A stretch of 22,149 nt of DNA from a virus. Position numbers and translations under genes: made by a program. Under the pieces are notes generated by a model. It saw only the letters and a list, made by a program, of their open reading frames with translations, was not told where the DNA came from and did not search any database. Every line of letters starts with the position of its first letter. Position 1 is the stretch's first letter. Location: the IMG/VR virus record IMGVR_UViG_3300022752_000435, positions 1 to 22,149 of that record; one strand, given 5' to 3'. Shown one piece after another: positions 8,607-19,918 of this stretch.

Positions 8607-8636
8607 CTTATAGGGGACATCATGACGCCGTGTCAG
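8607..8636 (-). promoter_or_regulatory. Possible promoter overlapping palindrome copy A
   Basis: On the minus strand CTGACA (8636-8631, inside the palindrome) is followed after 18 nt by TATAAG (8612-8607). This would start transcription near 8600, upstream of the VRR-NUC gene and just after terminator 1. Palindromes at the other sites lack such a clear -10 element. Confidence 0.4.
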
Positions 8637-8643
8637 TTTGTCC
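8615..8643 (-). repeat. 29-bp palindrome, copy A
   Basis: Arms (minus strand) GGACAAACTGAC and GTCATGATGTCC around spacer ACGGC. Lies directly after terminator 1 and before the VRR-NUC gene. Exactly 60 bp from copy B. Confidence 0.92.
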
Positions 8644-8644
8644 C

Positions 8645-8670
8645 AATAAAAAAGCCACCCGAAGGTGGCT
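8645..8670 (-). terminator. Intrinsic terminator 1 (UUCG loop)
   Basis: Minus strand: stem AGCCACC, loop TTCG, stem GGTGGCT, then a run of Ts. Ends leftward transcription that reads through terminator 2. Confidence 0.9.
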
Positions 8671-8674
8671 GGCC

Positions 8675-8703
8675 GGACATCATGACGCCATGTCAGATTG
8701 TCC
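8675..8703 (-). repeat. 29-bp palindrome, copy B
   Basis: Arms (minus strand) GGACAATCTGAC and GTCATGATGTCC around spacer ATGGC. Sits between terminators 2 and 1; part of a tandem terminator-palindrome duplication with a 60-bp period. Confidence 0.92.
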
Positions 8704-8704
8704 C

Positions 8705-8732
8705 AAATAAAAGGGCCACCCGAAGGTGGCCC
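8705..8732 (-). terminator. Intrinsic terminator 2 (UUCG loop)
   Basis: Minus strand: stem GGGCCACC, loop TTCG, stem GGTGGCCC, then TTTTATTT. First terminator reached by transcripts of the 8.9-17.8 kb gene block. Confidence 0.9.
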
Positions 8733-8747
8733 AGTACTACTAAAGGA

Positions 8748-8850
8748 GGCTACACAGTTGTTACATCTTGTAGGCTAAAGCAGATTCCACGTCCTACTCG
8801 TGGTTGGGAGGGTGCCGGTTCTACCGGCGCAGGGATAACTTACATCTGCT
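8748..8850. other. Gene-free segment with nested stem-loops, possible structured RNA
   Basis: No supported gene here. Four pairings are visible: GGCTACA (8748-8754) with TGTAGGC (8769-8775, one mismatch); AGCAGAT (8779-8785) with ATCTGCT (8844-8850); inside it CCACG (8787-8791) with CGTGG (8799-8803), closing a 7-nt loop; and GCCGGT (8814-8819) with ACCGGC (8823-8828). The shape is partly tRNA-like, but a D arm is absent. Strand is unknown; if transcribed leftward it is a 3' untranslated region in front of terminator 2. Confidence 0.35.
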
Positions 8851-8876
8851 AGGTTCATTATCCGTGCTCATATATT

Positions 8877-9062
8877 CTAGAATGCGGCTTCACCGAAAGC
8901 GTACAAATCAGCCGCTGGTTCAGTTGGAGCCTTTTGTTTTTTATCCACCTGCAAAATCAAATCTTTCCTGCACCCCATAAAGTGTGTAGCCTCAGTTTTA
9001 GTGGCGAACTTGCGGAGTGTGCCGTCTTCGTCGCAGACCCTATACCGTAATTGCGTCTTCAT
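8877..9062 (-). CDS. Hypothetical protein (61 aa)
   Basis: Small protein starting MKTQLRYRVCDEDGTLRKF, then TKTEATHFMGCRKDLIL, with a QKAPTEPAADLYAFGEAAF tail that looks disordered. ATG 9062 overlaps the upstream gene by 23 nt; no good ribosome site is visible, and an earlier in-frame ATG at 9119 is equally poor and would overlap far more. Last gene before the terminators. Not recognised. Confidence 0.68.
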   Translation of the reverse strand: MKTQLRYRVCDEDGTLRKFATKTEATHFMGCRKDLILQVDKKQKAPTEPAADLYAFGEAAF

Positions 9063-10008
9063 ACTTGGGGGTCGCAAGGGCGTTCTCGTGAAGTACGTAG
9101 AAGGTTTGGGGTTCATCATCGTCTGATATCCGCACCCCGATATTGAAGATTGGTTCCCGCGATGCCGCGACTTTCAAAACAGCCACACGGTCTTGAATGT
9201 GTTTCGGCAATGAGTCAAAAGTGCGATACCGAGTAAGGAAGTCCGGCTCTGCGTCCGTCACTTTGTTGCCTTTGATTTTGTTTTGGTATTCATGGTACTT
9301 GGCAAGGTCAACTACGTGCAAGGAGTCGTCCTTTAGACTTGCGACAGCATAGCCCGTAGCAAAAGATGCGCTTCGAGTGTTGGACGCTACTGCTCTGTCA
9401 ATCTGCTTTGCTGCCATGTAGATATCGTAGCATGACCTGACTTGCTTTTTATCTTCCATTCTGAAATCTGATGGAAGCGTGAGGGGCGCACCGAAAAGAG
9501 CGTGTTCAACAAACCCCAGTTGGGCTATCTCGGTATTGTAAGAAATCTTGTACGCCAATTCATGCCGTGCGTTGTACGCGATAGAACTGATAGGCGCGGT
9601 AACGGTATTCATAATTCCGATAGCAATCTGGTATGGGTCTTTACCACTAAGTAACTTCAACGCATTCCGCACCGCAGCGGCGGGGTCGGCGGTAATCAGT
9701 ACGTTACGCGTACCCCTGCGTTTTTCTACTTTGTGAGATTGAATACCGAACGCTTCTGGCTTGACGCCATCCTTGTTCTCCTTGCCTTCGTAAACGCCGA
9801 AACTAATCTCGCCAATCTGCTCAGCATCGTCGTATACCATGACTGCATTGACTAACTTCTCTTGACTTACATCATCGCTGTATTTAGCAGTGGTGTATGT
9901 GTTTGAGACTTCATACTCAAACGTCGGGCGCTTCTTCGAGAGTTTATCGAGAACGAACTTGAGGGGCGGGACAATGCCTTTGGCACTACCGAGAATAATC
10001 TTAGCCAT
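9040..10008 (-). CDS. Hypothetical protein (322 aa)
   Basis: Not recognised. Soluble, mixed alpha/beta protein. Features: basic N-terminus (AKIILGSAKGIVPPLKFVLDKL), an acidic beta-type region (NAVMVYDDAEQIGEISFGVYEG), KRRGTRNVLITADPAAAVRNALKLL, and a C-terminal FYVLHENALATPKYED. ATG 10008 has GGAG 9 nt upstream; an earlier GTG at 10023 would overlap that site. Follows the DUF3150-like gene by 18 nt and may belong to the same functional set as the AAA/VWA cassette, which is an inference from order only. Confidence 0.75.
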   Translation of the reverse strand: MAKIILGSAKGIVPPLKFVLDKLSKKRPTFEYEVSNTYTTAKYSDDVSQEKLVNAVMVYDDAEQIGEISFGVYEGKENKDGVKPEAFGIQSHKVEKRRGTRNVLITADPAAAVRNALKLLSGKDPYQIAIGIMNTVTAPISSIAYNARHELAYKISYNTEIAQLGFVEHALFGAPLTLPSDFRMEDKKQVRSCYDIYMAAKQIDRAVASNTRSASFATGYAVASLKDDSLHVVDLAKYHEYQNKIKGNKVTDAEPDFLTRYRTFDSLPKHIQDRVAVLKVAASREPIFNIGVRISDDDEPQTFYVLHENALATPKYEDAITV

Positions 10009-10026
10009 GAAAGTTATCTCCACTAA

Positions 10027-10908
10027 TTAAAAGTTAAACTTCGACAAGATGTCGTCCACTTCGGACTTGACTTTGCTGCGTACTTCTTCGGACTCTTTCA
10101 AGTCTTCGGTGTCTACGCTATTCACGACTGCGTTGAACCGACGACGAGCCTCTTCGAGTTTGGGGTCTTGTGTCAGGTTGAGGTGCTTGAGAACATCGCA
10201 CAGGTCGCGGGCGTTAGTAATCATTGAATCATGAATGCGGCGCTTCTTAGCCTTCTCCCCGTTTGCCGGTTCAGTAACCTCTTCCAACTTGGTACTCATG
10301 TGGACAAGACTATCGCGTAGTCTGCCATAGATTTCCTCCACGCCAGTTTGGATTCGGCTTTCCAACGCCGTCTCGTATTGCTTCTGCAATTCCTCCATCG
10401 CCTCGTTGCCCACATCTACACGGAAGTCACCCGCCGCAGGGACGGGCAGAAAGGAATAACGGAAACTGAAACTATGGATAATCTCATGCTTGGGCGGGTA
10501 GTCCGATGCCACAAACATATCAACAAGCACGTTCTCGGCTTCCTTCACCAAGTCTTCGTAGCGGTCTTTGAACTCTTCAACCATGTCACTACGCCGCATC
10601 TCGTAGTGTGAAAGAGTCTGTTTGTAGTTGAAGAAGTTTGATGCCGCAAGCAAGCGTGGGCCACGGTCTGACCACGGCAGGGTTTGGGATTGATGCCACA
10701 GACGGATACTTGCATCGAACTTGTTGATGTCAGACAGAAGGCTGGTTCCTGCGAACAGGTTCTTAGTAACCTTGGCTACCTTTGCCGTGGCATTCTTGAT
10801 TACGTTGACTTCGTCCGACATACTGCGGTCAGTAATGTTGGCAGTCCACGACTTGATGTTGAGGTCCACGAGCATTGCGCTCGATGCGATGCTGATGCTG
10901 TTTTGCAT
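10027..10908 (-). CDS. DUF3150-like protein of the MoxR/VWA cassette (293 aa)
   Basis: Largely alpha-helical, charged protein: N-terminal SSAMLVDLNIKSWTANITD, TKNLFAGTSLLSDINKF, then a long helical body (VEEFKDRYEDLVKEAENVLVDMF) and a C-terminal SKVKSEVDDILSKFNF. The N-terminal DLNIxSWTAxxxD pattern and its place next to a MoxR-like ATPase and a VWA protein match what I recall of DUF3150 proteins of phages and plasmids; length fits. ATG 10908 with AAGGAG 8 nt upstream is chosen; the open frame reaches further but those codons are only the translated palindrome copy C, whose end is 20 nt from the ATG. Biochemical role unknown. Confidence 0.72.
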   Translation of the reverse strand: MQNSISIASSAMLVDLNIKSWTANITDRSMSDEVNVIKNATAKVAKVTKNLFAGTSLLSDINKFDASIRLWHQSQTLPWSDRGPRLLAASNFFNYKQTLSHYEMRRSDMVEEFKDRYEDLVKEAENVLVDMFVASDYPPKHEIIHSFSFRYSFLPVPAAGDFRVDVGNEAMEELQKQYETALESRIQTGVEEIYGRLRDSLVHMSTKLEEVTEPANGEKAKKRRIHDSMITNARDLCDVLKHLNLTQDPKLEEARRRFNAVVNSVDTEDLKESEEVRSKVKSEVDDILSKFNF

Positions 10909-10928
10909 TTTATTCTCCTTGGTTATCG

Positions 10929-10957
10929 GGACAACCTGACACCATGTCAGATTGTCC
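10929..10957 (-). repeat. 29-bp palindrome, copy C
   Basis: Arms (minus strand) GGACAATCTGAC and GTCAGGTTGTCC, spacer ATGGT; 11 of 12 arm positions pair. Lies between the RHH gene and the DUF3150-like gene, 20 nt before its ATG. Confidence 0.93.
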
Positions 10958-10971
10958 ATCTGCCGGGTGGA

Positions 10972-11154
10972 TTACTTCTCATCCTTCTTGGCATGCTGAT
11001 GTACGAGCAGTACTACTATCTGCGCGTAGGACAATTTCAGTCCGGTCGATGCCTCCATTTCATCCCCAATCGTATCGAGCATATCAACCACCTCGACAGG
11101 CAGAGAGATAGTGAGCCGATTGTTCTTTGCTACGCGTTCGCGCTTGAGTGCCAT
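10972..11154 (-). CDS. Ribbon-helix-helix DNA-binding protein (60 aa)
   Basis: Looks like a CopG/Arc/MetJ-type ribbon-helix-helix regulator. A basic N-terminus (ALKRERVAKNN) precedes the beta strand RLTISLPVEV (about 13-22), then helix A (VDMLDTIGDEMEAS) and helix B (SYAQIVVLLVHQHAKK). Such dimers bind palindromic operators through the paired strands. AAGGAG lies 5 nt before ATG 11154, overlapping the VWA gene's end. It is a candidate to bind the 29-bp palindromes, one of which follows its stop by 14 nt; no direct proof. Confidence 0.82.
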   Translation of the reverse strand: MALKRERVAKNNRLTISLPVEVVDMLDTIGDEMEASTGLKLSYAQIVVLLVHQHAKKDEK

Positions 11155-11156
11155 GC

Positions 11157-12422
11157 TTACTCCTTGATGTGAATAGTTTTGCCAGACTCGGCGTTAAATG
11201 AGGGATTGCCAACCACGCACCAGATAATCGGACACCCCAAATCCGCCCAATTACCCTCTCCATGAAAGTACCCATCAGTAAGGACAATAACTACGTCCAC
11301 CTGCTGGCCCTTGCCTTGGATGATTTTGTTTTTGATGTACGGCGGCAGACAAGACGGGTCTGTGCCACCACCTCCCCTCGGTTGTGTAGTCTTATCAATC
11401 TGGTCGTACTCCGCCGGAGCGTAGACTTCATGTCCCGCAACTCGGGTATCCCAATACAAATGATGCAAGCCTTCGGGCATAACCTCGTTGCAGATAGACT
11501 TCACCTCGGACATGAACTTGCCAAGGATAGGCCCGCCGATGGAACCGGATGTATCAACACAGTCTACGATAAACCCGACGCGGTGCTCGATGTTCTGAGG
11601 AAGATAAATGTCAGCCCCAAGATGACGACGGCTGAATCGACGCCACGACGAGTCCCCGCTACCCTTGCATACATTCTTGACAAGGTCTCGCAGTACGTCA
11701 CGCCAATCGACTTCTGGCTCCACGAGTTCTACCAAGTCGCGGGGCACATCACCACCCATCTTCCCAACCAACTGCTTACCCTGCTGCAAGGCACGGTTGA
11801 TGCGGCTCTCCAGTTCGCGCTTCTCCTTGTCAGTCAGTTCCTTGTCACCATCCCAATCGTGCTCATCAAACTGATTGGCATCCAATTTCTTACGCTTTGG
11901 ACTACGTCCGCTACCATCGACAGGTTCGCCGTCTTCGCAAGGTTCACCGTCCCCCTCGCAATCATCTTCGAGTTCCTTCATCAGGTCGTCGAATACTTGC
12001 TTCGAGTCCCAACCGCGATACTTCTCATCAAGCAGGCCCATGCGGCTACCATCAGGGAACGTGGGGAATTGAATCTCCTGTTCATCAGGGTCTTGGTCAA
12101 TCAACTGAAGATTGATGACGTAGTCACACGCTGCGTTAGCAACGAGCGGGTCTTTGCGATATAGGTTCTTCCACACGCTAGTGTGACGCCATGCGATATG
12201 TGACAACTCATGCAGCACCACGAACAAGAGTTGCTTCTGGTTTAGGGAATCAACGAACTCCCGACCATACCACACATCTGCTCCATTGGTACGTGCAGTC
12301 GGAACGTCATCATCGACGAACACCTTGCCGACCATCGTCATACCCGCAAAGAAGCGAAACTTCTTCGATTGTAGAATTGAGACGTGAGCACGCTCAATCT
12401 TCTGCTCTGCTGTTATCTTCAT
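11157..12422 (-). CDS. Putative metallopeptidase/VWA protein, DUF2201-like (421 aa)
   Basis: Two-part protein. The N-terminal part has a zinc peptidase-like motif HELSHIAWRH (H71, E72, H75, H80) as in the DUF2201 metallopeptidase-like domain. An acidic, glycine-rich linker follows (about 155-190). The C-terminal part is a von Willebrand A fold with a MIDAS: DTSGS, then GGGGTDPS, then VLTDGY. Together with the upstream MoxR-like AAA ATPase this forms a chaperone-type pair in which the ATPase acts on targets through the metal-binding VWA protein. ATG 12422 has AAGGAG 6 nt upstream and palindrome copy D 15 nt upstream. Domain calls are strong; peptidase activity is unproven. Confidence 0.87.
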   Translation of the reverse strand: MKITAEQKIERAHVSILQSKKFRFFAGMTMVGKVFVDDDVPTARTNGADVWYGREFVDSLNQKQLLFVVLHELSHIAWRHTSVWKNLYRKDPLVANAACDYVINLQLIDQDPDEQEIQFPTFPDGSRMGLLDEKYRGWDSKQVFDDLMKELEDDCEGDGEPCEDGEPVDGSGRSPKRKKLDANQFDEHDWDGDKELTDKEKRELESRINRALQQGKQLVGKMGGDVPRDLVELVEPEVDWRDVLRDLVKNVCKGSGDSSWRRFSRRHLGADIYLPQNIEHRVGFIVDCVDTSGSIGGPILGKFMSEVKSICNEVMPEGLHHLYWDTRVAGHEVYAPAEYDQIDKTTQPRGGGGTDPSCLPPYIKNKIIQGKGQQVDVVIVLTDGYFHGEGNWADLGCPIIWCVVGNPSFNAESGKTIHIKE

Positions 12423-12432
12423 GCTTCTCTCC

Positions 12433-12720
12433 TTAATGGACAATGTGACCGGATGTCAGATTGTCCTCGTCTTCGTCAATGCCCTTGGTTACCAAGTAAC
12501 TCATCTGCATTCCGTACAGGAACCCCTCCATACTGAGTCCGTTCTGTACCGCGAGTATTGCCGCAGACTTACCCAATACAGTCATGCAGTGGGCGATTGC
12601 GTCTCGCTTGTCTTTTATGTTGTTAGTGTTGTTAATCACTTTCTTGATTGCTTCCAACATAATCGCAAGGTCTCTCTCGGCAGCGGCTATCTGCTCATCC
12701 GTGATGTCATCTTCAGTCAT
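12433..12720 (-). CDS. Hypothetical protein (95 aa)
   Basis: Helical acidic protein (TDEQIAAAERDLAIMLEAIKK, then KRDAIAHCMTVLGKSAAIL, MEGFLYGMQMSYLV). AAGGAG lies 6 nt before ATG 12720. Its last ten codons (DNLTSGHIVH and stop) are the translated palindrome copy D, so the C-terminus was added or fixed by the repeat. Sits between the ATPase and the VWA gene and is probably part of the cassette. Not recognised. Confidence 0.78.
   Translation of the reverse strand: MTEDDITDEQIAAAERDLAIMLEAIKKVINNTNNIKDKRDAIAHCMTVLGKSAAILAVQNGLSMEGFLYGMQMSYLVTKGIDEDEDNLTSGHIVH
12438..12466 (-). repeat. 29-bp palindrome, copy D
   Basis: Arms (minus strand) GGACAATCTGAC and GTCACATTGTCC, spacer ATCCG. Encodes the C-terminus of the 95-aa gene and lies 15 nt before the VWA gene's ATG. 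Confidence 0.92.
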
Positions 12721-12731
12721 GGTGTATCTCC

Positions 12732-13793
12732 TTAGAAAAGGTATTGGTTTTCACGCGCCCAGTCGATGAACGGCTGGCTGGAAAAGAGAATGCGCTTCTT
12801 CTCTTCGTTCTTTGCTGCTGTCAGGCAGAAGATAGATTGCAACTCTTTGGGTGCTCTCTTCATGTAAATGAACCACTTGCCGATGGTGCTGCGGTCAACC
12901 CATTGCACCGCCCCGAACGCGAGGATGCACAATGCTGCGGGGTCAGTCGGAACTCTTGCTGTTTCAGGAGTGTCGATTATGTCCTTACGCAAAGGTAGCG
13001 AGTCAGACAGGGCGATGAACGCAGACAACTGCTGCGCCGCCGTCCCACCGATTGTGCCTTGCAATGCACAGATAAGCGCCCCCTCGCTGAACTTGTCACG
13101 TGCCTTGATGATATTGCTAGCCAGTTCCAAGGAACGCGGCGACACAAAGGACTTCTGGTTGTGTCGTGGGTTGTAGATGAGGTGGTTGTTCTCTTGCGCC
13201 GCATCCAGATATGAAGCAAGGCAATTCGGGTTCTCGTGTACCCACGCCAACATGACCGGAGCAATCCTGTCGCTGCCCCAGTTAATCCATTCCTCCGCAC
13301 TCGGCTTGCGTATATTGAGTACCGACAGACGGTTTCGACTGTGAGCCGCCATCACGTCGCCTACCCCATCGCTTGTCAAGTTACCCGCAGTTAGCACCAC
13401 AGACGACGGGTGTAGAGGCAACCCACCGACACGGCGCGGGTTAGTGAGTAGCGGATGCAGCATGTTCTTGACTGCCGGTGCGCCCTTGGTGAACTCATCG
13501 AGCATGATACAAAGTGGTTCGTCAAGATGGAAACCCCAATGCTCACTCGGGTAGAGGGAGGTAGTGCGCGTCTCGCGGTCAGGCATGGGAATGCCCAAGT
13601 CACCCAACTCGGTATTCGGTACGTCGATGTAAATACCTTTCATGTTGAGGCGTTCGGCAATCACTCGGTGCATACTGGTTTTACCAACGCCCGGTTCGCC
13701 GACAAGATGGAATGTATTACCCGATGCACAGGCAACGATAAGGTCAGCGGCCTCGTTGAGGGAAACGTTCTGCTCAAGGTGAATCTGGTTCAT
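12732..13793 (-). CDS. MoxR-like AAA+ ATPase (353 aa)
   Basis: AAA_5/MoxR-type ATPase. Walker A GEPGVGKTS at residues 32-40, Walker B CIMLDE (95-100), sensor TAGNLTSDG around N138, and SRNR (152-155) with a probable arginine finger. MoxR ATPases work with VWA proteins to remodel or activate partner proteins; the next genes supply a VWA-metallopeptidase protein and a DUF3150-like protein. ATG 13793 has GAGAGG upstream, and palindrome copy E ends 32 nt before the start. Target in the infected cell unknown. Confidence 0.92.
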   Translation of the reverse strand: MNQIHLEQNVSLNEAADLIVACASGNTFHLVGEPGVGKTSMHRVIAERLNMKGIYIDVPNTELGDLGIPMPDRETRTTSLYPSEHWGFHLDEPLCIMLDEFTKGAPAVKNMLHPLLTNPRRVGGLPLHPSSVVLTAGNLTSDGVGDVMAAHSRNRLSVLNIRKPSAEEWINWGSDRIAPVMLAWVHENPNCLASYLDAAQENNHLIYNPRHNQKSFVSPRSLELASNIIKARDKFSEGALICALQGTIGGTAAQQLSAFIALSDSLPLRKDIIDTPETARVPTDPAALCILAFGAVQWVDRSTIGKWFIYMKRAPKELQSIFCLTAAKNEEKKRILFSSQPFIDWARENQYLF

Positions 13794-13817
13794 GATTTGG
13801 TCCTCTCTTGGTTTAGG

Positions 13818-14969
13818 TTAAACGTGGACATTCTGACGACGTGTCAGGTTGTCCCTCAGATACTGATATGTATACACATAACAAGTATTTCTCTCACTAG
13901 GTAATACCCCTGTCTCCACTTCTTTGCTTACAAAGCATATATCTGCATATGCTATCTTAAGTACATCATCAAAAACTTTTAAGAGCGTGCTTGCGGGTAT
14001 GCTGCTCCGCAACTCTGGTGTTTTGTGATAACCGTCTCCCACGAATGTTGCTAACAAGTCATGCTTAGTTGATGTACCAGCATCGACTCTAAAATTCGCA
14101 GCAACGCTTGCTGCTAGAAGCACTGTCAGTTTGCGCCAGTCGTCAGGCTTGCTTGACTGCGCTAGATTAAGCGCATTGTTGAGGTTGTAACTCGCGTCCT
14201 CTTTGTCCTCCTCTTTGGCTTTCATTACAATTCTCATAGACGGGAGCAGTGTGTGCTGAGTTTGGAACATCTGCTGAATCGAAAGGCGCATATTCCATAT
14301 GGGGTTGACAGACCATTGACTGTTTGCTTTATTCGCTATGTCAACAAGCATGTTTGAAACAAACCTAGCCCCCACCTGCGGGAAGCACTCAATCAATTCG
14401 TCAGATGAATAAACGTCCGAAATCGCCGCCGTTACCTTGAGGTAGTTGATGAAGTCCGAGTACGCACGTCGCACCGCGTTGAGTGCCTTGCGATTGGCTA
14501 CGTATTCGTATTTCACTGGCGCGTTGAGAGGCTCAAGCGTAGTCCACTCTTTGTCAGCCTTGAAGTACACCCATCCGTTCTTTGGTATCTCATAGTTGAG
14601 CGACTTGTCAGGCCGAGGCACAGTAAGAATTACTTTGTTGTCCTTCCGATACACCGTCCCGAGAGTGGCGGGGAGCACCGCATCCAAGAACTTGACCGTA
14701 GTTATAGACGGCCAGCCGCAACAGTTGAATGCAACCGTGCCATCCTTGGCGTACGTCATGACTATGTTGTCGTACAGTTTGAACTGCAGGCGTTCGTCTG
14801 CCATCTCGATGGCGCATTGCTTGTACCTACGGTTATTCCCGACCGGACGAATCGGCGGGTTGCTGCCACGGATAGGCTTGACCTCGTTGTAGAACTTGAG
14901 TGCGGTCTCGTAGTTCTTGAAGTCATGCCAACTGATTGAAGCAGGGTGATGCCTCGAGTGTCCCCACAT
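13818..14969 (-). CDS. Hypothetical protein (383 aa)
   Basis: Not recognised. N-terminus HSRHHPASISWHDFKNYETA, then a beta-rich region with paired cysteines (VAFNCCGWPSITT) and VPRPDKSLNYEIPKNGWVYF; the second half is helical (NLNNALNLAQSS, TVLLAASVAANF). ATG 14969 has GGAGG 8 nt upstream, one base after the 56-aa gene. The last 12 residues (RDNLTRRQNVHV) are mostly the translated palindrome copy E. Lies directly before the MoxR-like gene and may function with it. Confidence 0.78.
   Translation of the reverse strand: MWGHSRHHPASISWHDFKNYETALKFYNEVKPIRGSNPPIRPVGNNRRYKQCAIEMADERLQFKLYDNIVMTYAKDGTVAFNCCGWPSITTVKFLDAVLPATLGTVYRKDNKVILTVPRPDKSLNYEIPKNGWVYFKADKEWTTLEPLNAPVKYEYVANRKALNAVRRAYSDFINYLKVTAAISDVYSSDELIECFPQVGARFVSNMLVDIANKANSQWSVNPIWNMRLSIQQMFQTQHTLLPSMRIVMKAKEEDKEDASYNLNNALNLAQSSKPDDWRKLTVLLAASVAANFRVDAGTSTKHDLLATFVGDGYHKTPELRSSIPASTLLKVFDDVLKIAYADICFVSKEVETGVLPSERNTCYVYTYQYLRDNLTRRQNVHV
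13826..13854 (-). repeat. 29-bp palindrome, copy E
   Basis: Arms (minus strand) GGACAACCTGAC and GTCAGAATGTCC, spacer ACGTC. Overlaps the end of the 383-aa gene; 32 nt before the AAA ATPase start. Confidence 0.93.
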
Positions 14970-14970
14970 T

Positions 14971-15141
14971 TCACCTTCCTCCAAACTTGTAGATTACCCA
15001 TTCACCGATTCGAGCAAGCAGGCTTTGCTTTTCTTCTTGCGCCCACAATGTCGGCTCGTAGCCATACGCTTCCTTCATGCTTCTCGCTATCCGGTAGTCC
15101 TTGTCACGGAACTCCGTGAACTGATAGTGGCGTTCGTTCAT
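14971..15141 (-). CDS. Small hypothetical protein (56 aa)
   Basis: Found by reading the gap between longer genes. ATG 15141 has GGGAG 7 nt upstream and overlaps the preceding stop as ATGA. Starts NERHYQFTEFRDKDYRIAR, ends WVIYKFGGR. Looks like a small phage protein with mixed charged and aromatic residues; not recognised. Confidence 0.74.
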   Translation of the reverse strand: MNERHYQFTEFRDKDYRIARSMKEAYGYEPTLWAQEEKQSLLARIGEWVIYKFGGR

Positions 15142-15560
15142 TTCGTCTCTCCCTTCGCAGCCTTAACTGCGCGAGCCAACTGCAGTCGAATGTACTGACG
15201 CTTCACGCGCTCGTACTCACTCTTGGGGATTGCCATCCTAACAGATACAAACATCGTCTCGCCATCATCCCCTGCTTTGAGCGAGGTCCAGTCTGCCTTG
15301 GTGTACTTCCAATTAATCTCACCCACGGTCTGCGCTGTGACCATGCAGGCATGCCGATGCGCCCTACGGTTCATTGCCACGGTGTACGCGTGGTGCGGGA
15401 CTTCCTCTGCTGTCAGGACATTCTGACCTTGTGTCAGGTTGTCCACCACGGTTTCGGCTTTCTCGACCATCTTCGTCCACTCCTCTTTGGTTGGTTTCGT
15501 CTTCAGCAACACCAGTCTGTTTGCCAAATGCGTGGCAATCTTCTCGTCTCTGGTTTTCAT
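15138..15560 (-). CDS. Hypothetical protein with in-frame palindrome (140 aa)
   Basis: Not recognised. Helical N-terminus (KIATHLANRLVLLKTKPT, EEWTKMVEKAET), then the repeat-encoded DNLTQGQNVLT (residues 40-50), then MNRRAHRHACMVTAQTVGE and a basic C-terminus (YERVKRQYIRLQLARAVK). ATG 15560 is preferred over the neighbouring GTG; it overlaps the upstream stop as TGATG and has GGGAG 7 nt before it. The palindrome copy F does not break the frame. Confidence 0.76.
   Translation of the reverse strand: MKTRDEKIATHLANRLVLLKTKPTKEEWTKMVEKAETVVDNLTQGQNVLTAEEVPHHAYTVAMNRRAHRHACMVTAQTVGEINWKYTKADWTSLKAGDDGETMFVSVRMAIPKSEYERVKRQYIRLQLARAVKAAKGETK
15416..15444 (-). repeat. 29-bp palindrome, copy F (inside a gene)
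   Basis: Arms (minus strand) GGACAACCTGAC and GTCAGAATGTCC, spacer ACAAG. Lies in the middle of the 140-aa gene and encodes DNLTQGQNVL. Confidence 0.92.
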
Positions 15561-15883
15561 CACTCATCTCCCTTGATGTATCCGGTGGCCTTATCAATAA
15601 GGAACTCACCCTCCATGTAGTCCAACCCATTCGGGTACTCGTCCTGCGCAGTCACTTCATCAAACTTGATGCGAACATGGGGCTTGCCGCCGTTGTCACG
15701 CACGTCTTCCGCGGCCTGTTCAAGCCACTCAGCCACGCTCTCAACGGTAGAGCCATAAAGACTCACATCGAACGTCCATCTGATGGGTTTCCAATCTCGG
15801 TCATACGAAATCTCGACAATCCTGTAGCAATCCACAGTTCCATCTTCCGAGACAATCTCTGCTACTCCGTAACTCCAGTTCAT
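15560..15883 (-). CDS. Hypothetical protein (107 aa)
   Basis: Not recognised. Beta-rich: WSYGVAEIVSEDGTVDCYRIVEISYD, then WTFDVSLYGSTVESVAEWLEQ, then VRIKFDEVTAQDEY. ATG 15883 follows GAGGAG at 7 nt and the preceding stop by one base. Ends in GDE followed by a junction (GGGAGATGAGTGATG) that recurs at the next-but-one gene boundary. Confidence 0.75.
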   Translation of the reverse strand: MNWSYGVAEIVSEDGTVDCYRIVEISYDRDWKPIRWTFDVSLYGSTVESVAEWLEQAAEDVRDNGGKPHVRIKFDEVTAQDEYPNGLDYMEGEFLIDKATGYIKGDE

Positions 15884-15884
15884 C

Positions 15885-16070
15885 TCACCACTCCTCGTAA
15901 AAAGCATTCAATACAGGATGCACACCGAACGAATCAAAATCTGCGCGGTACTTCTCTGCGTAGCCCCACGCCTCCTGCTCGGTATCAAACAAGCCATAGA
16001 CACTGCATGGCAAGCGGTCGGAGTAGAAAGAGTACCCAATCACTACCCACTTCCCTGTCTCTTCACCCAT
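15885..16070 (-). CDS. Hypothetical protein (61 aa)
   Basis: Not recognised. Begins GEETGKWVVIGYSFYSDRL and carries SVYGLFDTEQEAWGYAEKYR, a strand-loop-helix arrangement often seen in small phage proteins of unknown role. ATG 16070 overlaps the preceding stop as TGATG and has GGGAG 7 nt upstream. Confidence 0.74.
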   Translation of the reverse strand: MGEETGKWVVIGYSFYSDRLPCSVYGLFDTEQEAWGYAEKYRADFDSFGVHPVLNAFYEEW

Positions 16071-16357
16071 CACTCATCTCCCTCTCGGACTACATCCTCA
16101 ACCATAAAGTTATCAGCCACTTCGTTAAGGGCTGCACTCACCAACCCAAGCACAGGCTTCGCTATCCTGATGCGGCTCTCATAAACCTTGATTAGTTCTT
16201 TCCTGTTCGGGATGTCCCCCTCTTCCTTGCTGTGTTGCAGTTGCGTCAGGTTCTCCTTCGCGCAACCGATGAAGTCAATCAACGCCCACTCGACGAGTAC
16301 TACGTCAACGTATGGCATGTTCAACGGAACAATCACTTCCTCTTTCACTTCGCTCAT
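16070..16357 (-). CDS. Hypothetical helical protein (95 aa)
   Basis: Not recognised. Mainly helical after a short strand: VEWALIDFIGCAKENLTQLQ, RKELIKVYESRIRIAKPVL, VSAALNEVADNFM. Start overlaps the upstream stop as ATGA. Ends GDE like the 107-aa gene. Confidence 0.75.
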   Translation of the reverse strand: MSEVKEEVIVPLNMPYVDVVLVEWALIDFIGCAKENLTQLQHSKEEGDIPNRKELIKVYESRIRIAKPVLGLVSAALNEVADNFMVEDVVREGDE

Positions 16358-16677
16358 GGCTTGCTCCCCAGATGCTGTTCAATCGCTTTCAGTATCAGGT
16401 CTTTGTTGCGCGTCTTAGGCTCGCGGATGTACGCGGCGCAGTGGCGCAGTAGTTCCTTCTGTTGCTTCTGGACCTCCTTGTGCAGTTCGATGATTTCATG
16501 CAGCGAGTTGACCACTTGCTTGGTGCGCTTGATGTACGCGATGGATTGGGTTAGGACTTCCTGACGCCGTGTCAGATTGTCCTGTGCTTGTTGGTTGAGC
16601 GCGTTGTTGAGTAGCGCGTAGAGGTCGTCCACCTGTGGGGCGTAGGGACCTTCGATGGGGATGTTGTGCATGGTCAT
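16354..16677 (-). CDS. Hypothetical helical protein with in-frame palindrome (107 aa)
   Basis: Not recognised. After MTMHNIPIEGPYAPQ the protein is a long charged helix: DDLYALLNNALNQQAQ, then the repeat-encoded DNLTRRQEVLT (33-43), then IAYIKRTKQVVNSLHEIIE and LHKEVQKQQKELLRHC. ATG 16677 has GGGAG 7 nt before it and an ATGA overlap with the RHH gene; the longer open frame upstream would overlap that gene wholly. Confidence 0.75.
   Translation of the reverse strand: MTMHNIPIEGPYAPQVDDLYALLNNALNQQAQDNLTRRQEVLTQSIAYIKRTKQVVNSLHEIIELHKEVQKQQKELLRHCAAYIREPKTRNKDLILKAIEQHLGSKP
16554..16582 (-). repeat. 29-bp palindrome, copy G (inside a gene)
   Basis: Arms (minus strand) GGACAATCTGAC and GTCAGGAAGTCC, spacer ACGGC. 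Encodes DNLTRRQEVL within the 107-aa gene, in the same frame as copy F in an unrelated protein. Confidence 0.9.
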
Positions 16678-16820
16678 GCTTGCTCTCCCTTCATTGCCTG
16701 CAGCAGCAGGGCGTAGATGTAGTTGGACTTCGGGCGGTGCGTCTCGCGGGACATGGCCTCGAGCCATGCGTTTACTTCTGGGCTGACACGCAATGTCAGT
16801 ACGATGCTTCTGGGTTCCAT
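16674..16820 (-). CDS. Ribbon-helix-helix protein, short form (48 aa)
   Basis: ATG 16820 has AAGGAGGAG 6 nt upstream, the best ribosome site in the area, inside the longer open frame. The product is almost exactly one RHH domain: strand RSIVLTLRVSPEV, helix NAWLEAMSRETHR, helix KSNYIYALLLQAM. Second RHH protein of the window and a candidate operator-binding regulator. Confidence 0.6.
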   Translation of the reverse strand: MEPRSIVLTLRVSPEVNAWLEAMSRETHRPKSNYIYALLLQAMKGEQA

Positions 16821-17048
16821 GATTAACTCCTCCTTGATTTGTGCAAAGGTATGCAGCACCTTGAGATGTTTAGTTTTCTCTATGTGCAGTTTCAATGTGG
16901 CTTGGTTGTCAGCAGCAAGTTGCATCTTGCGTTTGATGTCCTCCCTGTTGGCCCGTTGCTTGTTGCCGTGCGTACTGTCAGTAACCTCGCCGTCCCCGCA
17001 CAGGTGGATGAACGACGTAGGCGTGGTGTTGATAATTTGGGTTTTCAC
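16674..17048 (-). CDS. RHH protein, long form with helical N-terminal extension (124 aa)
   Basis: The frame from GTG 17048 (GGGGAG 6 nt upstream, next to the preceding stop) is open to 16674. Residues 1-75 have a polar start, NKQRANREDIKRKMQLAADN, then a helix (TLKLHIEKTKHLKVLH, FAQIKEELI). Residues 77-124 are a ribbon-helix-helix module. An excellent internal start (ATG 16820) may give a separate short form. Whether one or both products are made cannot be decided from sequence. Confidence 0.62.
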   Translation of the reverse strand: MKTQIINTTPTSFIHLCGDGEVTDSTHGNKQRANREDIKRKMQLAADNQATLKLHIEKTKHLKVLHTFAQIKEELIMEPRSIVLTLRVSPEVNAWLEAMSRETHRPKSNYIYALLLQAMKGEQA

Positions 17049-17049
17049 A

Positions 17050-17292
17050 TTACTCTCCCCGCCACTCGGCGCGGATGGCGCGCTCGTTGGCTTGTTGGTC
17101 TGCATACACAGCAGTGATGCGCTTAAGCATTACCCACATGCTGTCGGTGTTGTATAGGTGGTCGCCAGCAAACCGGAACCACTCGTTGTCGTCCCAACAC
17201 TCGACCATCATGTCGCCACCGCGAGTGTAGTTCTCGAGGCACCAACGCTTCATGTCCTCGATTTCAATCAGCACTTCCTTGAATGCACCCAT
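17050..17292 (-). CDS. Hypothetical protein (80 aa)
   Basis: Not recognised. Acidic and aromatic: EVLIEIEDMKRWCLENYTRG, ECWDDNEWFRFAGDHLYNTD, then a helix (MWVMLKRITAVYADQQANER). AAGGAG lies 6 nt before ATG 17292; the gene runs into the RHH gene start. Confidence 0.75.
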   Translation of the reverse strand: MGAFKEVLIEIEDMKRWCLENYTRGGDMMVECWDDNEWFRFAGDHLYNTDSMWVMLKRITAVYADQQANERAIRAEWRGE

Positions 17293-17302
17293 CTCGTTCT
17301 CC

Positions 17303-17428
17303 TTATTTCTTCTCAGGTTGCTTCTCGGCTTGCTTCTTCATCTTGGCTGACCTCGCTCGTTCGTAGGCCATGTTCTCCCAGTGCTTGCGTGTCAGTTCGC
17401 GCTTGAATTCTTCTGAGTATCTGTCCAC
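17303..17428 (-). CDS. Small basic protein with GTG start (41 aa)
   Basis: Below usual length limits. GTG 17428 has AAGGAG 6 nt upstream, and palindrome copy H ends 20 nt before it. The product is highly charged: YSEEFKRELTRKHWENMAYE, then a lysine-rich tail (KMKKQAEKQPEKK). Supported by position, ribosome site and neat spacing to the next gene. Role unknown. Confidence 0.62.
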   Translation of the reverse strand: MDRYSEEFKRELTRKHWENMAYERARSAKMKKQAEKQPEKK

Positions 17429-17448
17429 TTCTCTCTCCTTGGTTGGCT

Positions 17449-17477
17449 GGACATTCTGACGGGCTGTCATGTTGTCC
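17449..17477 (-). repeat. 29-bp palindrome, copy H
   Basis: Arms (minus strand) GGACAACATGAC and GTCAGAATGTCC, spacer AGCCC. Contains the stop codon of the zinc-finger gene and lies 20 nt before the 41-aa gene. Confidence 0.9.
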
Positions 17478-17670
17478 TCTTGGGGTTGAGTTGACGTAGT
17501 TGTGTAAGGTCAGTAATCAGCAAGTAGTTGGACTTGTTGAGCGGCGCGGTGATGTGATACTTGCTTTCGGCTTTCGCTTGCTGTTCGCCGCAGTACAGGC
17601 ACGTGCGATAACCCAAGACCCAGCGGTCAGGCACGACAACATCACCACAAATAACGCAATGGGTTTCCAT
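17467..17670 (-). CDS. Zinc-ribbon-like protein (67 aa)
   Basis: Two CxxC pairs, CVIC (5-8) and CLYC (24-27), each followed by G, bracket VVVPDRWVLGYRT, giving a treble-clef or zinc-ribbon fold. C-terminus TDLTQLRQLNPKRTT is polar. GGGGG lies just upstream of ATG 17670. The stop codon lies inside palindrome copy H, but the repeat is read in another frame than in copies D to G. DNA or RNA binding is likely; the target is unknown. Confidence 0.8.
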   Translation of the reverse strand: METHCVICGDVVVPDRWVLGYRTCLYCGEQQAKAESKYHITAPLNKSNYLLITDLTQLRQLNPKRTT

Positions 17671-17679
17671 CTCACCCCC

Positions 17680-17793
17680 TCACTTAATAAATACAAGACG
17701 GTTGAACACGAAATGCCCGATGCGGATGGTATGGCCCACACGCACATGCTCGGAACGGTAGAAGTAATAAGTAAGCATACGAAGAACACGCAC
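17680..17793 (-). CDS. Small basic protein (37 aa)
   Basis: Proposed start GTG 17793 with GGGAG 7 nt upstream, 17 nt after palindrome copy I, the same geometry as at copies C, D and H. Product: VRVLRMLTYYFYRSEHVRV, then HTIRIGHFVFNRLVFIK, basic and aromatic. The frame is open further upstream, but that part is the translated palindrome. First gene of the leftward block; function unknown. Confidence 0.5.
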   Translation of the reverse strand: MRVLRMLTYYFYRSEHVRVGHTIRIGHFVFNRLVFIK

Positions 17794-17810
17794 AATGAAT
17801 CTCCCAGTGG

Positions 17811-17839
17811 GGACAACCTGACATACCGTCATTTTGTCC
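17811..17839 (-). repeat. 29-bp palindrome, copy I
   Basis: Arms (minus strand) GGACAAAATGAC and GTCAGGTTGTCC, spacer GGTAT. At the left edge of the noncoding hub, 17 nt before the first gene of the leftward block. Confidence 0.9.
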
Positions 17840-17953
17840 GTTACAAAAAATGGACGAGGTACTACATTATCATTATCCCACACTATGACACATACCTCAA
17901 ATTTGTGTCCCGACTATCGCGTAGGTGTCCCGCATTACGAAATGTTGTCTAGT

Positions 17954-18001
17954 GTCACGCGGACTTGGTATTGACAACGGAACAATAGGAACAATGGAAC
18001 A
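17954..18001. repeat. Direct repeat unit 1 of the hub
   Basis: About 48 bp starting TGTCACGCGGAC and ending in three GGAACA boxes. Repeated 66 bp further on with few differences. Confidence 0.85.
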
Positions 18002-18380
18002 TTATAAGTGGGACGGAATGTCACGCGGACGTGGAAATGACAACGGAACAATAGGAACAATAGAACAATAGGTGTCAGTTGGGGTCAGTTAGCCCTAATG
18101 TTCTGTAATGTTCCATAATGTTCCTAAGGGGTAGGAACAAAACAAACCCAGTAAATACGGGGCTTGCAGCGTAATGTTCTTTTGTTCCGTCTATTATTAG
18201 TTTTATATGAATTTATTTTTGTCCCCCTGCAAAACTTGCGTAGGTGCTCCGACTGACATAAAAATTTTCCCAGAAGCCCTAAATTGGACGGAACATTAGG
18301 AACAAAAGAACATTACTGCATAATCAGGCACTTACCGAACTGACTCGACGGAACATTATAGGAACATTAGGAACAATAGG
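17980..18380. other. Iteron-rich noncoding region, candidate replication origin
   Basis: No gene is seen from 17840 to 18662. Within it 18 GGAACA/TGTTCC boxes (three with one change) form clusters of two to three with 9-10 bp spacing at 17980-18003, 18046-18072, 18099-18124 (inverted, plus one box at 18134), 18175-18188 (inverted), 18290-18314 and 18350-18380. The inverted clusters flank a strongly AT-rich core (18191-18220). Such iteron and AT-rich layouts are usual for replication origins, but a regulatory hub is also possible, as this is where leftward transcription should begin. Confidence 0.6.
18020..18067. repeat. Direct repeat unit 2 of the hub
   Basis: Second copy of the 48-bp unit: TGTCACGCGGAC, then TGACAACGGAACAATAGG and following boxes. 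Differs from unit 1 at about five positions. Confidence 0.85.
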
Positions 18381-18399
18381 ATTTGCCCCTTTTTGGTGC

Positions 18400-18428
18400 A
18401 GACAATCTGACACGATGTCAGTTTGTCC
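18400..18428 (-). repeat. 29-bp palindrome, copy J
   Basis: Arms (minus strand) GGACAAACTGAC and GTCAGATTGTCT, spacer ATCGT. Lies at the right edge of the iteron region; the next terminator on the right is at 18623. Confidence 0.9.
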
Positions 18429-18502
18429 CTCGCTCTGGTCGCCCTTTGTCAGTTTGTGACTTTGTACGCAGGATGATGCTACCGCGTAGGTTTTAGGGAA
18501 CT

Positions 18503-18521
18503 GGTCAGGCGAAGCCTGACC
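18503..18521. repeat. Perfect inverted repeat in GC-rich noncoding DNA
   Basis: GGTCAGGC, GAA, GCCTGACC: an 8-bp stem with a 3-nt loop, no T-run. It begins a GC-rich stretch (18520-18610) with short repeats such as GAGGCCGC and GCTCGCTGCGCTCGC. No gene is supported there. Confidence 0.6.
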
Positions 18522-18622
18522 GAGGCAGGCGCGAGGCCGCACCGAGGCCGCAGCCGAGGGCAGCCGAAAGCGTGACGCCGCGCCACCCGCTCGCTGCGCT
18601 CGCCTGCTGGCGCACGATGGAC

Positions 18623-18649
18623 AAAAAAAGCCCCGCCCGAAGGCGAGGC
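18623..18649 (-). terminator. Intrinsic terminator 3 (UUCG loop)
   Basis: Minus strand: stem GCCTCGCC, loop TTCG, stem GGCGGGGC (one U-G pair), then seven Ts. It is 13 nt after the 81-aa gene and closes the right-hand leftward unit. Confidence 0.9.
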
Positions 18650-18662
18650 CGATGCTGCTGAA

Positions 18663-18908
18663 TTACAGGAAATGGTGGAATGGGGCGAACTCATACTCGA
18701 CGTAGAATTCGGTGGCGTTGACGCTGGTCATGTACTGGTGACCAAGAAAATTCATGGTGTCCCTGTTGGTGGCATCTTCCGACCACCGCTCCGCAAACCC
18801 CATGTCAACTGATGAGAACTTGACGATGGTCCAGCGCCAAGACCGCGCCCGCTTTTCGCAGGCGACCCGAACGCGAATGGTTAGACTACCCTTTGTGCTG
18901 TCTGACAT
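18663..18908 (-). CDS. Hypothetical protein (81 aa)
   Basis: Not recognised. Beta-rich: TKGSLTIRVRVACEKRARSW, then WTIVKFSSVD, then NATEFYVEYEFAPFHHF. GGAGGG lies 7 nt before ATG 18908. It follows the 263-aa gene after a hairpin and is followed by terminator 3, so the two form a short leftward unit. Confidence 0.78.
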   Translation of the reverse strand: MSDSTKGSLTIRVRVACEKRARSWRWTIVKFSSVDMGFAERWSEDATNRDTMNFLGHQYMTSVNATEFYVEYEFAPFHHFL

Positions 18909-18936
18909 GATGCAACCCTCCGATATGTTATGGGAA

Positions 18937-18962
18937 GGCCGGAAGCCCGAAAGCCTCCGGCC
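18937..18962 (-). other. Intergenic hairpin between the 263-aa and 81-aa genes
   Basis: GGCCGGA pairs with TCCGGCC over a short GC-rich loop. There is no T-run, so it is more likely an mRNA stabilising or attenuating element than a terminator. Confidence 0.45.
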
Positions 18963-18972
18963 CGCTTGCTAC

Positions 18973-19764
18973 TTACTGCGACTGCAGAACATCGAGCACT
19001 TGGTCAAGAACCCGCAGGTCGGACACGAACAGTTTATTGTCCGCGCCGTCAACCTTACGCTTGCCATACTGCGCAATGGCTTTCCACTTGTCGGACACCG
19101 CCTTGTTATGCTCATCCGACTCAGTACGCTCACGCAGGGTGATGGCGGTCTTGATGCGCTCCGCCTCCGCCTCGCCCGCCGCGTCACCCTTGGCCGCTTT
19201 AGTGTAAGCCGCCTTGAGCGCCGCCTTTAGGTCGGCTTCCGTCTTGCCCTCAAACGCAGCAAGCAACTCAGCCCGCGCCGCATCCGCCTTGACTTTCGCC
19301 TCAGCACGTTGGGCCGCCTTTTTCAAGGCCTCCGGATTATCCGACACCGGAGGTTTGAAGCCGCCCTTGAGCACATGGTCAACCAACTCGACCGCTCGAG
19401 ACCACGCCTTATCGTAGGCGTTGTCAGTAAGGCCGGGACGCTTGGCTCGGTACTGTTCGAGCACCATCACCCGCACGCTCGAGAACCAGCCCCACCGCAC
19501 CATGCGGACCCGAACGTCGAAGTCTAGCGCCGCGCCGTGTTCGTCCACGACATCGGACTGAGACGCCAACAAAGCCGTTACCGCCGAGTACACTTGCAAA
19601 TCGGCTTTGCCCGCGTCCGCTCGGAGCACTTCCGCCTCGAACATCCCGAGCGCCGCCTCCGCTGCCAGACTGCGCATATCGGCGGTCCACAACAGGCTTA
19701 CCGCATCCGCGTCAGCCGCCAACAACTCACCGGCTTGAGCCGGAACCATTTGATTCTGTTCCAT
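18973..19764 (-). CDS. Alanine-rich hypothetical protein (263 aa)
   Basis: Not recognised. N-terminus with PAQAGELLAADADAVSLL; a middle domain with FDVRVRMVRWGWFSSVRVMV and KAWSRAVELVDHVLKGGF; then a long alanine- and lysine-rich helix (EALKKAAQRAEAKVKADAAR); C-terminus SDLRVLDQVLDVLQSQ. GGAGGG lies 7 nt before ATG 19764; the frame stays open upstream only through noncoding GC-rich DNA. Clearly more GC-rich than genes on the left. As the first leftward gene at the divergent region it may be an early regulator or initiator, an inference from position alone. Confidence 0.78.
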   Translation of the reverse strand: MEQNQMVPAQAGELLAADADAVSLLWTADMRSLAAEAALGMFEAEVLRADAGKADLQVYSAVTALLASQSDVVDEHGAALDFDVRVRMVRWGWFSSVRVMVLEQYRAKRPGLTDNAYDKAWSRAVELVDHVLKGGFKPPVSDNPEALKKAAQRAEAKVKADAARAELLAAFEGKTEADLKAALKAAYTKAAKGDAAGEAEAERIKTAITLRERTESDEHNKAVSDKWKAIAQYGKRKVDGADNKLFVSDLRVLDQVLDVLQSQ

Positions 19765-19801
19765 GTTGGAACCCTCCACCAGATACCGTCTGGCAATCGG
19801 A

Positions 19802-19826
19802 CTACGCTGCAACACGCAGCGCGTAG
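19802..19826. repeat. Leader inverted repeat
   Basis: CTACGCTGC pairs with GCAGCGCGTAG (2-nt bulge) around AACAC. In the 5' leader of the 263-aa gene; could fold in the mRNA. Confidence 0.4.
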
Positions 19827-19889
19827 ATGAATAGTAGCAAACCCACGGAACCCGTGTGATTTTTTGGGAGGCGCCGCCGCGCCGCCGCC

Positions 19890-19918
19890 GGACAGACTGA
19901 CACGCCGTCACAATGTCC
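19890..19918 (-). repeat. 29-bp palindrome, copy K
   Basis: Arms (minus strand) GGACATTGTGAC and GTCAGTCTGTCC, spacer GGCGT; the most diverged copy. Located in the divergent region, 125 nt before the 263-aa gene. Confidence 0.82.

Follow-up and report, generated by a model that had tools for sequence, protein, structure and literature searches.

An array of oriented 29-bp palindromes in one gene block of uncultured phages: putative stoperator-like sites

Control of transcript elongation at dispersed sites is best known from temperate mycobacteriophages. Cluster A phages such as L5 and Bxb1 carry 20-30 stoperators genome-wide, many of them in short intergenic spaces and mainly in one orientation with respect to transcription, with a motif that drifts with the phage (PMC6550527, PMC9283540). 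Cluster K phages (TM4, Anaya, Pixie) carry ESAS, which are imperfect inverted repeats of 17 bp, separated by a spacer (mostly 4-13 bp) and located just upstream of start codons in a subset of non-structural genes; they keep one orientation, their consensus varies by phage, and the left arm is the better conserved (PMC3203893). Here we describe an array of 11 palindromes, 29 bp each, in a 22-kb virus contig, IMG/VR record IMGVR_UViG_3300022752_000435, analyzed over its whole 22,149 nucleotides (hereafter the window), and in a set of related uncultured phages. On balance, we lean towards reading these palindromes as operator- or stoperator-like double-stranded DNA sites for one phage-encoded symmetric protein, which would act on elongating RNA polymerase.

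The array works like stoperators and ESAS, but the features tested place it in neither group. As in Cluster A, multiple dispersed sites are oriented with transcription; here, however, the bias is moderate, and absent at the operon end. A stoperator is an asymmetric site of 13 bp, to which the immunity repressor of a temperate phage binds as a monomer, whereas the present sites are 29-bp near-symmetric palindromes, grouped as 3-11 copies in one block, found also inside coding sequence and merged with a terminator, in phages where lysogeny genes were not found. An inverted repeat before start codons is shared with the Cluster K ESAS (window sites C, D, E, H and I), but these pair with a 13-bp SAS (GGGATAGGAGCCC), while the array has none, nothing being conserved after the palindrome in 160 aligned sites; in addition, the array extends within genes and to a terminator, has a fixed 5-bp spacer, and belongs to unrelated phages. 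Planktothrix phage Pag-Yong1 (OL906435) has relatives of terminase, portal, VWA, MoxR and P310 in common with the array phages, and has numerous palindrome copies lying past a stop codon and ahead of the following start; the sequence is a different one, of 23 bp (ATCCGGTTCAGnCTGAACCGGAT), and the likeness seen is one of arrangement. Three records with exactly the same length, 65,014, carry three different host assignments, all to cyanobacteria.

Copies, positions and conservation of the palindrome

All window copies, lettered A to K, lie on the minus strand and show 0-1 mismatches to GGACAnnCTGACn5GTCAGnnTGTCC; since 100 shuffles yielded no match, chance is excluded as their origin. Over the relatives, the motif broadens to nGACAnnnTGACn5GTCAnnnTGTCn. 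Number, coordinates and common length agree with the sequence-only reading that had first listed the copies, and so does the constant GGACAA arm, which 10 of the 11 copies carry on the 5' side with respect to gene sense. A matrix built from other lineages assigns the right orientation to 9 of the 11 (p=0.065 taken alone). As had been noted, sites C, D, E, H and I precede a start codon by 15-32 nt (20, 15, 32, 20 and 17 nt, respectively), and their usual order on the gene strand is stop codon, palindrome, Shine-Dalgarno sequence, start codon. A Shine-Dalgarno-like AAGGAG follows several window copies, and some copies are translated in frame, reading DNLTxxQNV.

Proceeding from the left, site A (8615-8643) is the operon-end site, upstream of a VRR-NUC/Hjc-like nuclease gene and about 10 nt past a terminator (8670-8653), at a junction occupied in most relatives; site B (8675-8703) is flanked by this terminator and by another one at 8732-8713. 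Site C (10929-10957) falls at the junction between a ribbon-helix-helix (RHH) gene and P310, and is followed by AAGGAG and by the ATG at 10908. Site D (12438-12466) overlaps the 3' end of a 95-aa open reading frame (ORF), ahead of the VWA gene ATG at 12422, and site E (13826-13854) the 3' end of a 388-aa ORF, ahead of the MoxR ATPase ATG at 13793. Sites F (15416-15444) and G (16554-16582) are contained within ORFs of 141 aa (15138-15563) and 137 aa (16354-16767). Site H (17449-17477) overlaps the end of a 67-aa zinc-ribbon gene, the next start being the GTG at 17428, and site I (17811-17839) is the leader site of the zinc-ribbon operon, some 26 nt past the predicted transcription start and upstream of the GTG at 17793. 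Site J (18400-18428) is non-coding and lies below a terminator at 18650-18629; of the terminators said to precede A, B and J, those of A and B were found as described, while that of J is only at some distance. Site K (19890-19918) lies between a 264-aa gene (ATG 19764) and the terminase small subunit gene: it is indeed upstream of the former, formerly given as 263 aa and divergent, but this gene shares the strand of the block, and the divergent one is the terminase small subunit gene.

A near-identical relative, IMGVR_UViG_3300027963_000098 (54 kb, IMG/VR), with a VWA protein 98% identical to that of the window, also contains 11 sites, all within 25,685-35,855; no site is found in the rest of this genome, even allowing 4 mismatches. 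The array is thus a feature of a single gene block some 11 kb long, and the term "genome-scale", applied to it in the sequence-only reading, had to be dropped. A search of IMG/VR with a loose pattern returned 75 stretches, many from contigs with several copies, while a reversed control pattern returned almost none. Altogether, the motif is present in dozens of very different uncultured phage contigs, often in 3-11 copies each and in one gene block only. The shared block is syntenic and comprises the zinc-ribbon gene, P388, the MoxR ATPase, the VWA protein, P310 and P327, followed by a VRR-NUC-type nuclease and the DNA polymerase region; at the opposite end, P264 stands between the block and the terminase. 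Sites recur at the P388/MoxR, VWA/P310 and P327/nuclease junctions, in the zinc-ribbon leader and in the interior of the VWA gene. Their frequency is clearly not that of chance, their places are conserved in relatives, and the oriented operator-like system proposed from the window, stoperator-like in arrangement, is supported.

A second sample of contigs, independent of the pattern, was gathered through an 83-aa helix-turn-helix (HTH) protein. GACA...TGTC palindromes were found in every contig taken from this sample whose examined DNA includes MoxR-VWA-P310-P327 or a large part of it (seven contigs); in the contigs without palindromes, the block is absent from the examined sequence.

Neither P327 nor P264 finds a match among 50,697 phage records, and the block is therefore not seen in any phage of that collection. 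In the phages nearest by terminase or polymerase, DSL-LC04, HTVC023P, HTVC027P and RHph_TM3_14A, the palindrome is absent from the 50 kb examined per phage, and a de novo search of the same four detected no comparable array. A literature search found no report of the motif. A scan for the exact pattern, covering genomes from 84,980 species of bacteria and archaea, returned 7 stretches, 4 of which contain 5 sites of a single Butyrivibrio repeat family; in Butyrivibrio sp. SIG348, several similar palindromes feature inverted flanks of the CCCCGTCCCCTAGGG type, and look like an unrelated chromosomal repeat family.

DNA-level constraint, half-site drift and transcription signals

The 189 oriented sites show hardly any change in columns 2-5 and 9-12 or in the columns opposite them. 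Columns 1/29, 6/24, 7/23 and 8/22 do vary, and they neither covary nor retain pairs: columns 7/23 are Watson-Crick in just 33 of the 189, and in the variable columns G-U is about as frequent as A-C. Since an RNA stem would give the opposite, unpaired variation with no favour for G-U indicates a constraint on DNA rather than on RNA. Information drops near background at the edges of the palindrome, and the 160 aligned sites share no conserved sequence beyond it. These features suggest that the copies are DNA sites for a symmetric protein.

In 24 of 33 VWA genes the internal site falls at one and the same alignment column, and in the same frame, within a hypervariable Gly-rich linker. GGA, GAC and TCA codons are fixed there in 20 out of 20 distinct sites, against a general usage of 11%, 52% and 23%; this fixation is partly circular, sites being matched by pattern, while the shared alignment column is independent of that.

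The inner half-site changes together within a genome (TGAC, TTAC, TTTC or GTAC), while the outer GACA/TGTC remains constant. One genome has 7 sites with mostly TTAC/GTAA in place of TGAC/GTCA; others feature TTTC or TTCC/GAAA, or GTAC, in both arms at several sites, and some show mixed inner half-sites. Concerted drift of this kind is the trace that would be expected from a changing cognate protein.

Strong promoter-like sequences lie close to 30 of 121 sites, compared to 7 of 121 in shuffles. In several lineages near-consensus sigma-70 promoters are found upstream (e.g. TTGACTttgtatagttattatgcTATAAT), and the first palindrome starts about 30-80 nt into the transcript. In the window, a sigma-70 promoter (TTGAGG-17-GATAAT, with TG before the second hexamer) is predicted upstream of site I on the minus strand (17872-17900), although the number of such matches in the region is at chance level; relatives have stronger promoters at the same place.

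At the P327/nuclease junction, which is the operon end, a T-run directly follows the palindrome in 12 of 17 cases, versus 10 of 143 elsewhere. Stems are fuller here, and most of these palindromes serve at the same time as intrinsic terminators; further downstream, the nuclease operon has a promoter of its own, recognized by eye. Outside the terminator and VWA sites, orientation is biased (89 of 124), a figure whose significance overstates independence, the lineages being related.

Proposed mode of action and rival explanations

If the palindromes are operator-like sites of this kind, the candidate protein would be dimeric or tetrameric, and would bind double-stranded palindromes distributed over a single operon region with sigma-70-type promoters. 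The first of them apparently lies just past the transcription start; others occupy gene junctions, the interior of long genes and the terminator. With such a distribution, a protein acting on the passing polymerase fits better than control of initiation or of translation. Once bound, it would most likely stop or pause elongating RNA polymerase at many points, as stoperator-like roadblocks, and the whole block might be switched off as a unit, possibly for feedback or for an early/middle-to-late switch, and not for lysogeny. We infer binding by a phage protein, repression and timing; that the effect would be repressive is suggested by the likeness to stoperators (PMC9283540, PMC6550527).

Several observations weigh against this interpretation. 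Sequence alone cannot separate repression from activation. The orientation preference is modest and is lost at the operon-end site. The recognition helix of the HTH protein, the best candidate binder, is nearly invariant (VSRMTIYKWF) although the inner half-sites vary. Most contigs were found via the pattern itself, which makes the motif statistics conditional, and related contigs are non-independent samples. Finally, searches detected neither a tyrosine integrase (in 14 records) nor a resolvase or ParB_N (in 12 records each), no search being aimed at a homologue of the L5 repressor, so that a lysogeny role of the L5 stoperator type is not indicated.

Among the alternatives, the one surviving best, which we still consider unlikely, is that the bound protein is an activator or a polymerase-modifying (anti-termination) factor, loaded at many points and raising expression of the block. 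The operon-end palindrome is, in several lineages, placed about 20 bp ahead of the -35 element that serves the next operon (TTGCnn-17-TATACT), a spacing like that of activators, and sites are kept beside terminators; most other sites, however, have no promoter shortly downstream, and none was found near the VWA-internal ones.

It is improbable that the copies act as RNA hairpins in the mRNA, affecting translation, stability or termination. Palindromes often stand 15-40 nt ahead of start codons, and the operon-end copy has a full stem and a T-run in most lineages, but the absence of covariation and of a preference for G-U, the conserved site deep within the VWA gene and the lack of any credible Rfam match all argue to the contrary. 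Hairpins in 5' leaders, as envisaged in the sequence-only reading, thus find no general support, covariation being absent, whereas the operon-end site is also an intrinsic terminator in most lineages.

We equally doubt that these are sites of genome organization (partition, packaging or the binding of a nucleoid protein of the host) that play no direct part in transcription. Multiple spaced copies, some inside genes, would suit such a function, and phage N15 has scattered centromere sites; the sites, however, stay within a single transcribed block of the 54-kb genome, their orientation is biased with transcription, and a ParB centromere is not favored, ParB_N being absent from the 12 records searched.

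That the copies are parts of sigma-70 promoters, with CTGACA as the -35 element, is very unlikely: CTGACA occurs in most copies, and TATAAG is found 18 nt after site A, but no -10 hexamer is enriched at any fixed spacing after 141 palindromes, and near-consensus promoters lie elsewhere. This reading, also put forward from the window alone, was rejected. Mobile palindromic elements of the REP or RPE type, inserted at gene ends, are the least credible alternative, and were rejected: the copies are short, palindromic, numerous and in part translated in frame, but they hold orthologous positions in diverged phages, the flanks contain no further element sequence, and the sequence drifts in concert.

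Candidate binders, surrounding features and significance

The 83-aa HTH protein was found in 12 of the 19 site-bearing records searched; the other 7, the window among them, are short or partial contigs that may not extend to the HTH region. It is absent from all 5 relatives devoid of this palindrome. In one contig (L090, 14999-15250) its gene lies beside primase and SSB-like genes, and a likeness to the Lac repressor headpiece, visible by eye, is weak by profile. A 60-aa RHH protein (10972-11154, minus strand), found in many but not all site-bearing phages, is a further candidate, as is P264 (18973-19764, minus strand), which is conserved beside the terminase genes and has an AlphaFold model with no PDB match. 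For P327, also taken as a candidate, a fold search gave no informative match. The 67-aa C4 zinc-ribbon gene (17467-17670, minus strand), directly downstream of leader site I, belongs to a conserved family weakly resembling DksA/TraR; a relative matches the DksA/TraR C4 zinc-finger models with E 0.01-0.14, below the cut-off.

Below site H (17294-17477), the comparison with contigs L084 and L045 reveals a variable accessory gene: none is present in L045, the 54-kb relative has one gene followed by a second palindrome, and the window has a different gene and no second palindrome. Genes seem to be exchanged here between palindrome-Shine-Dalgarno modules, site H marking the exchange slot. The non-coding stretch between sites I and J (17949-18380) is filled by repeated GGAACA/TGTTCC units (e.g. 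GGAACATTAGGAACAATAG), and similar GAACA/TGTTC runs are found near the leader promoter in other lineages.

More broadly, and only tentatively, we suggest that a widespread clade of uncultured phages, in which lysogeny genes were not detected, may control a whole operon by blocking elongation at scattered palindromes. One of these would be fused with an intrinsic terminator, where a DNA-bound protein and an RNA hairpin would share the same sequence, and the operator specificity would drift in concert over all sites. If so, dispersed elongation control, with a different site architecture, would operate throughout a broad clade of uncultured phages, and the array would be a natural record of how operator specificity shifts together at numerous sites; direct tests could be made both of the operator embedded in a terminator and of the one within coding sequence.

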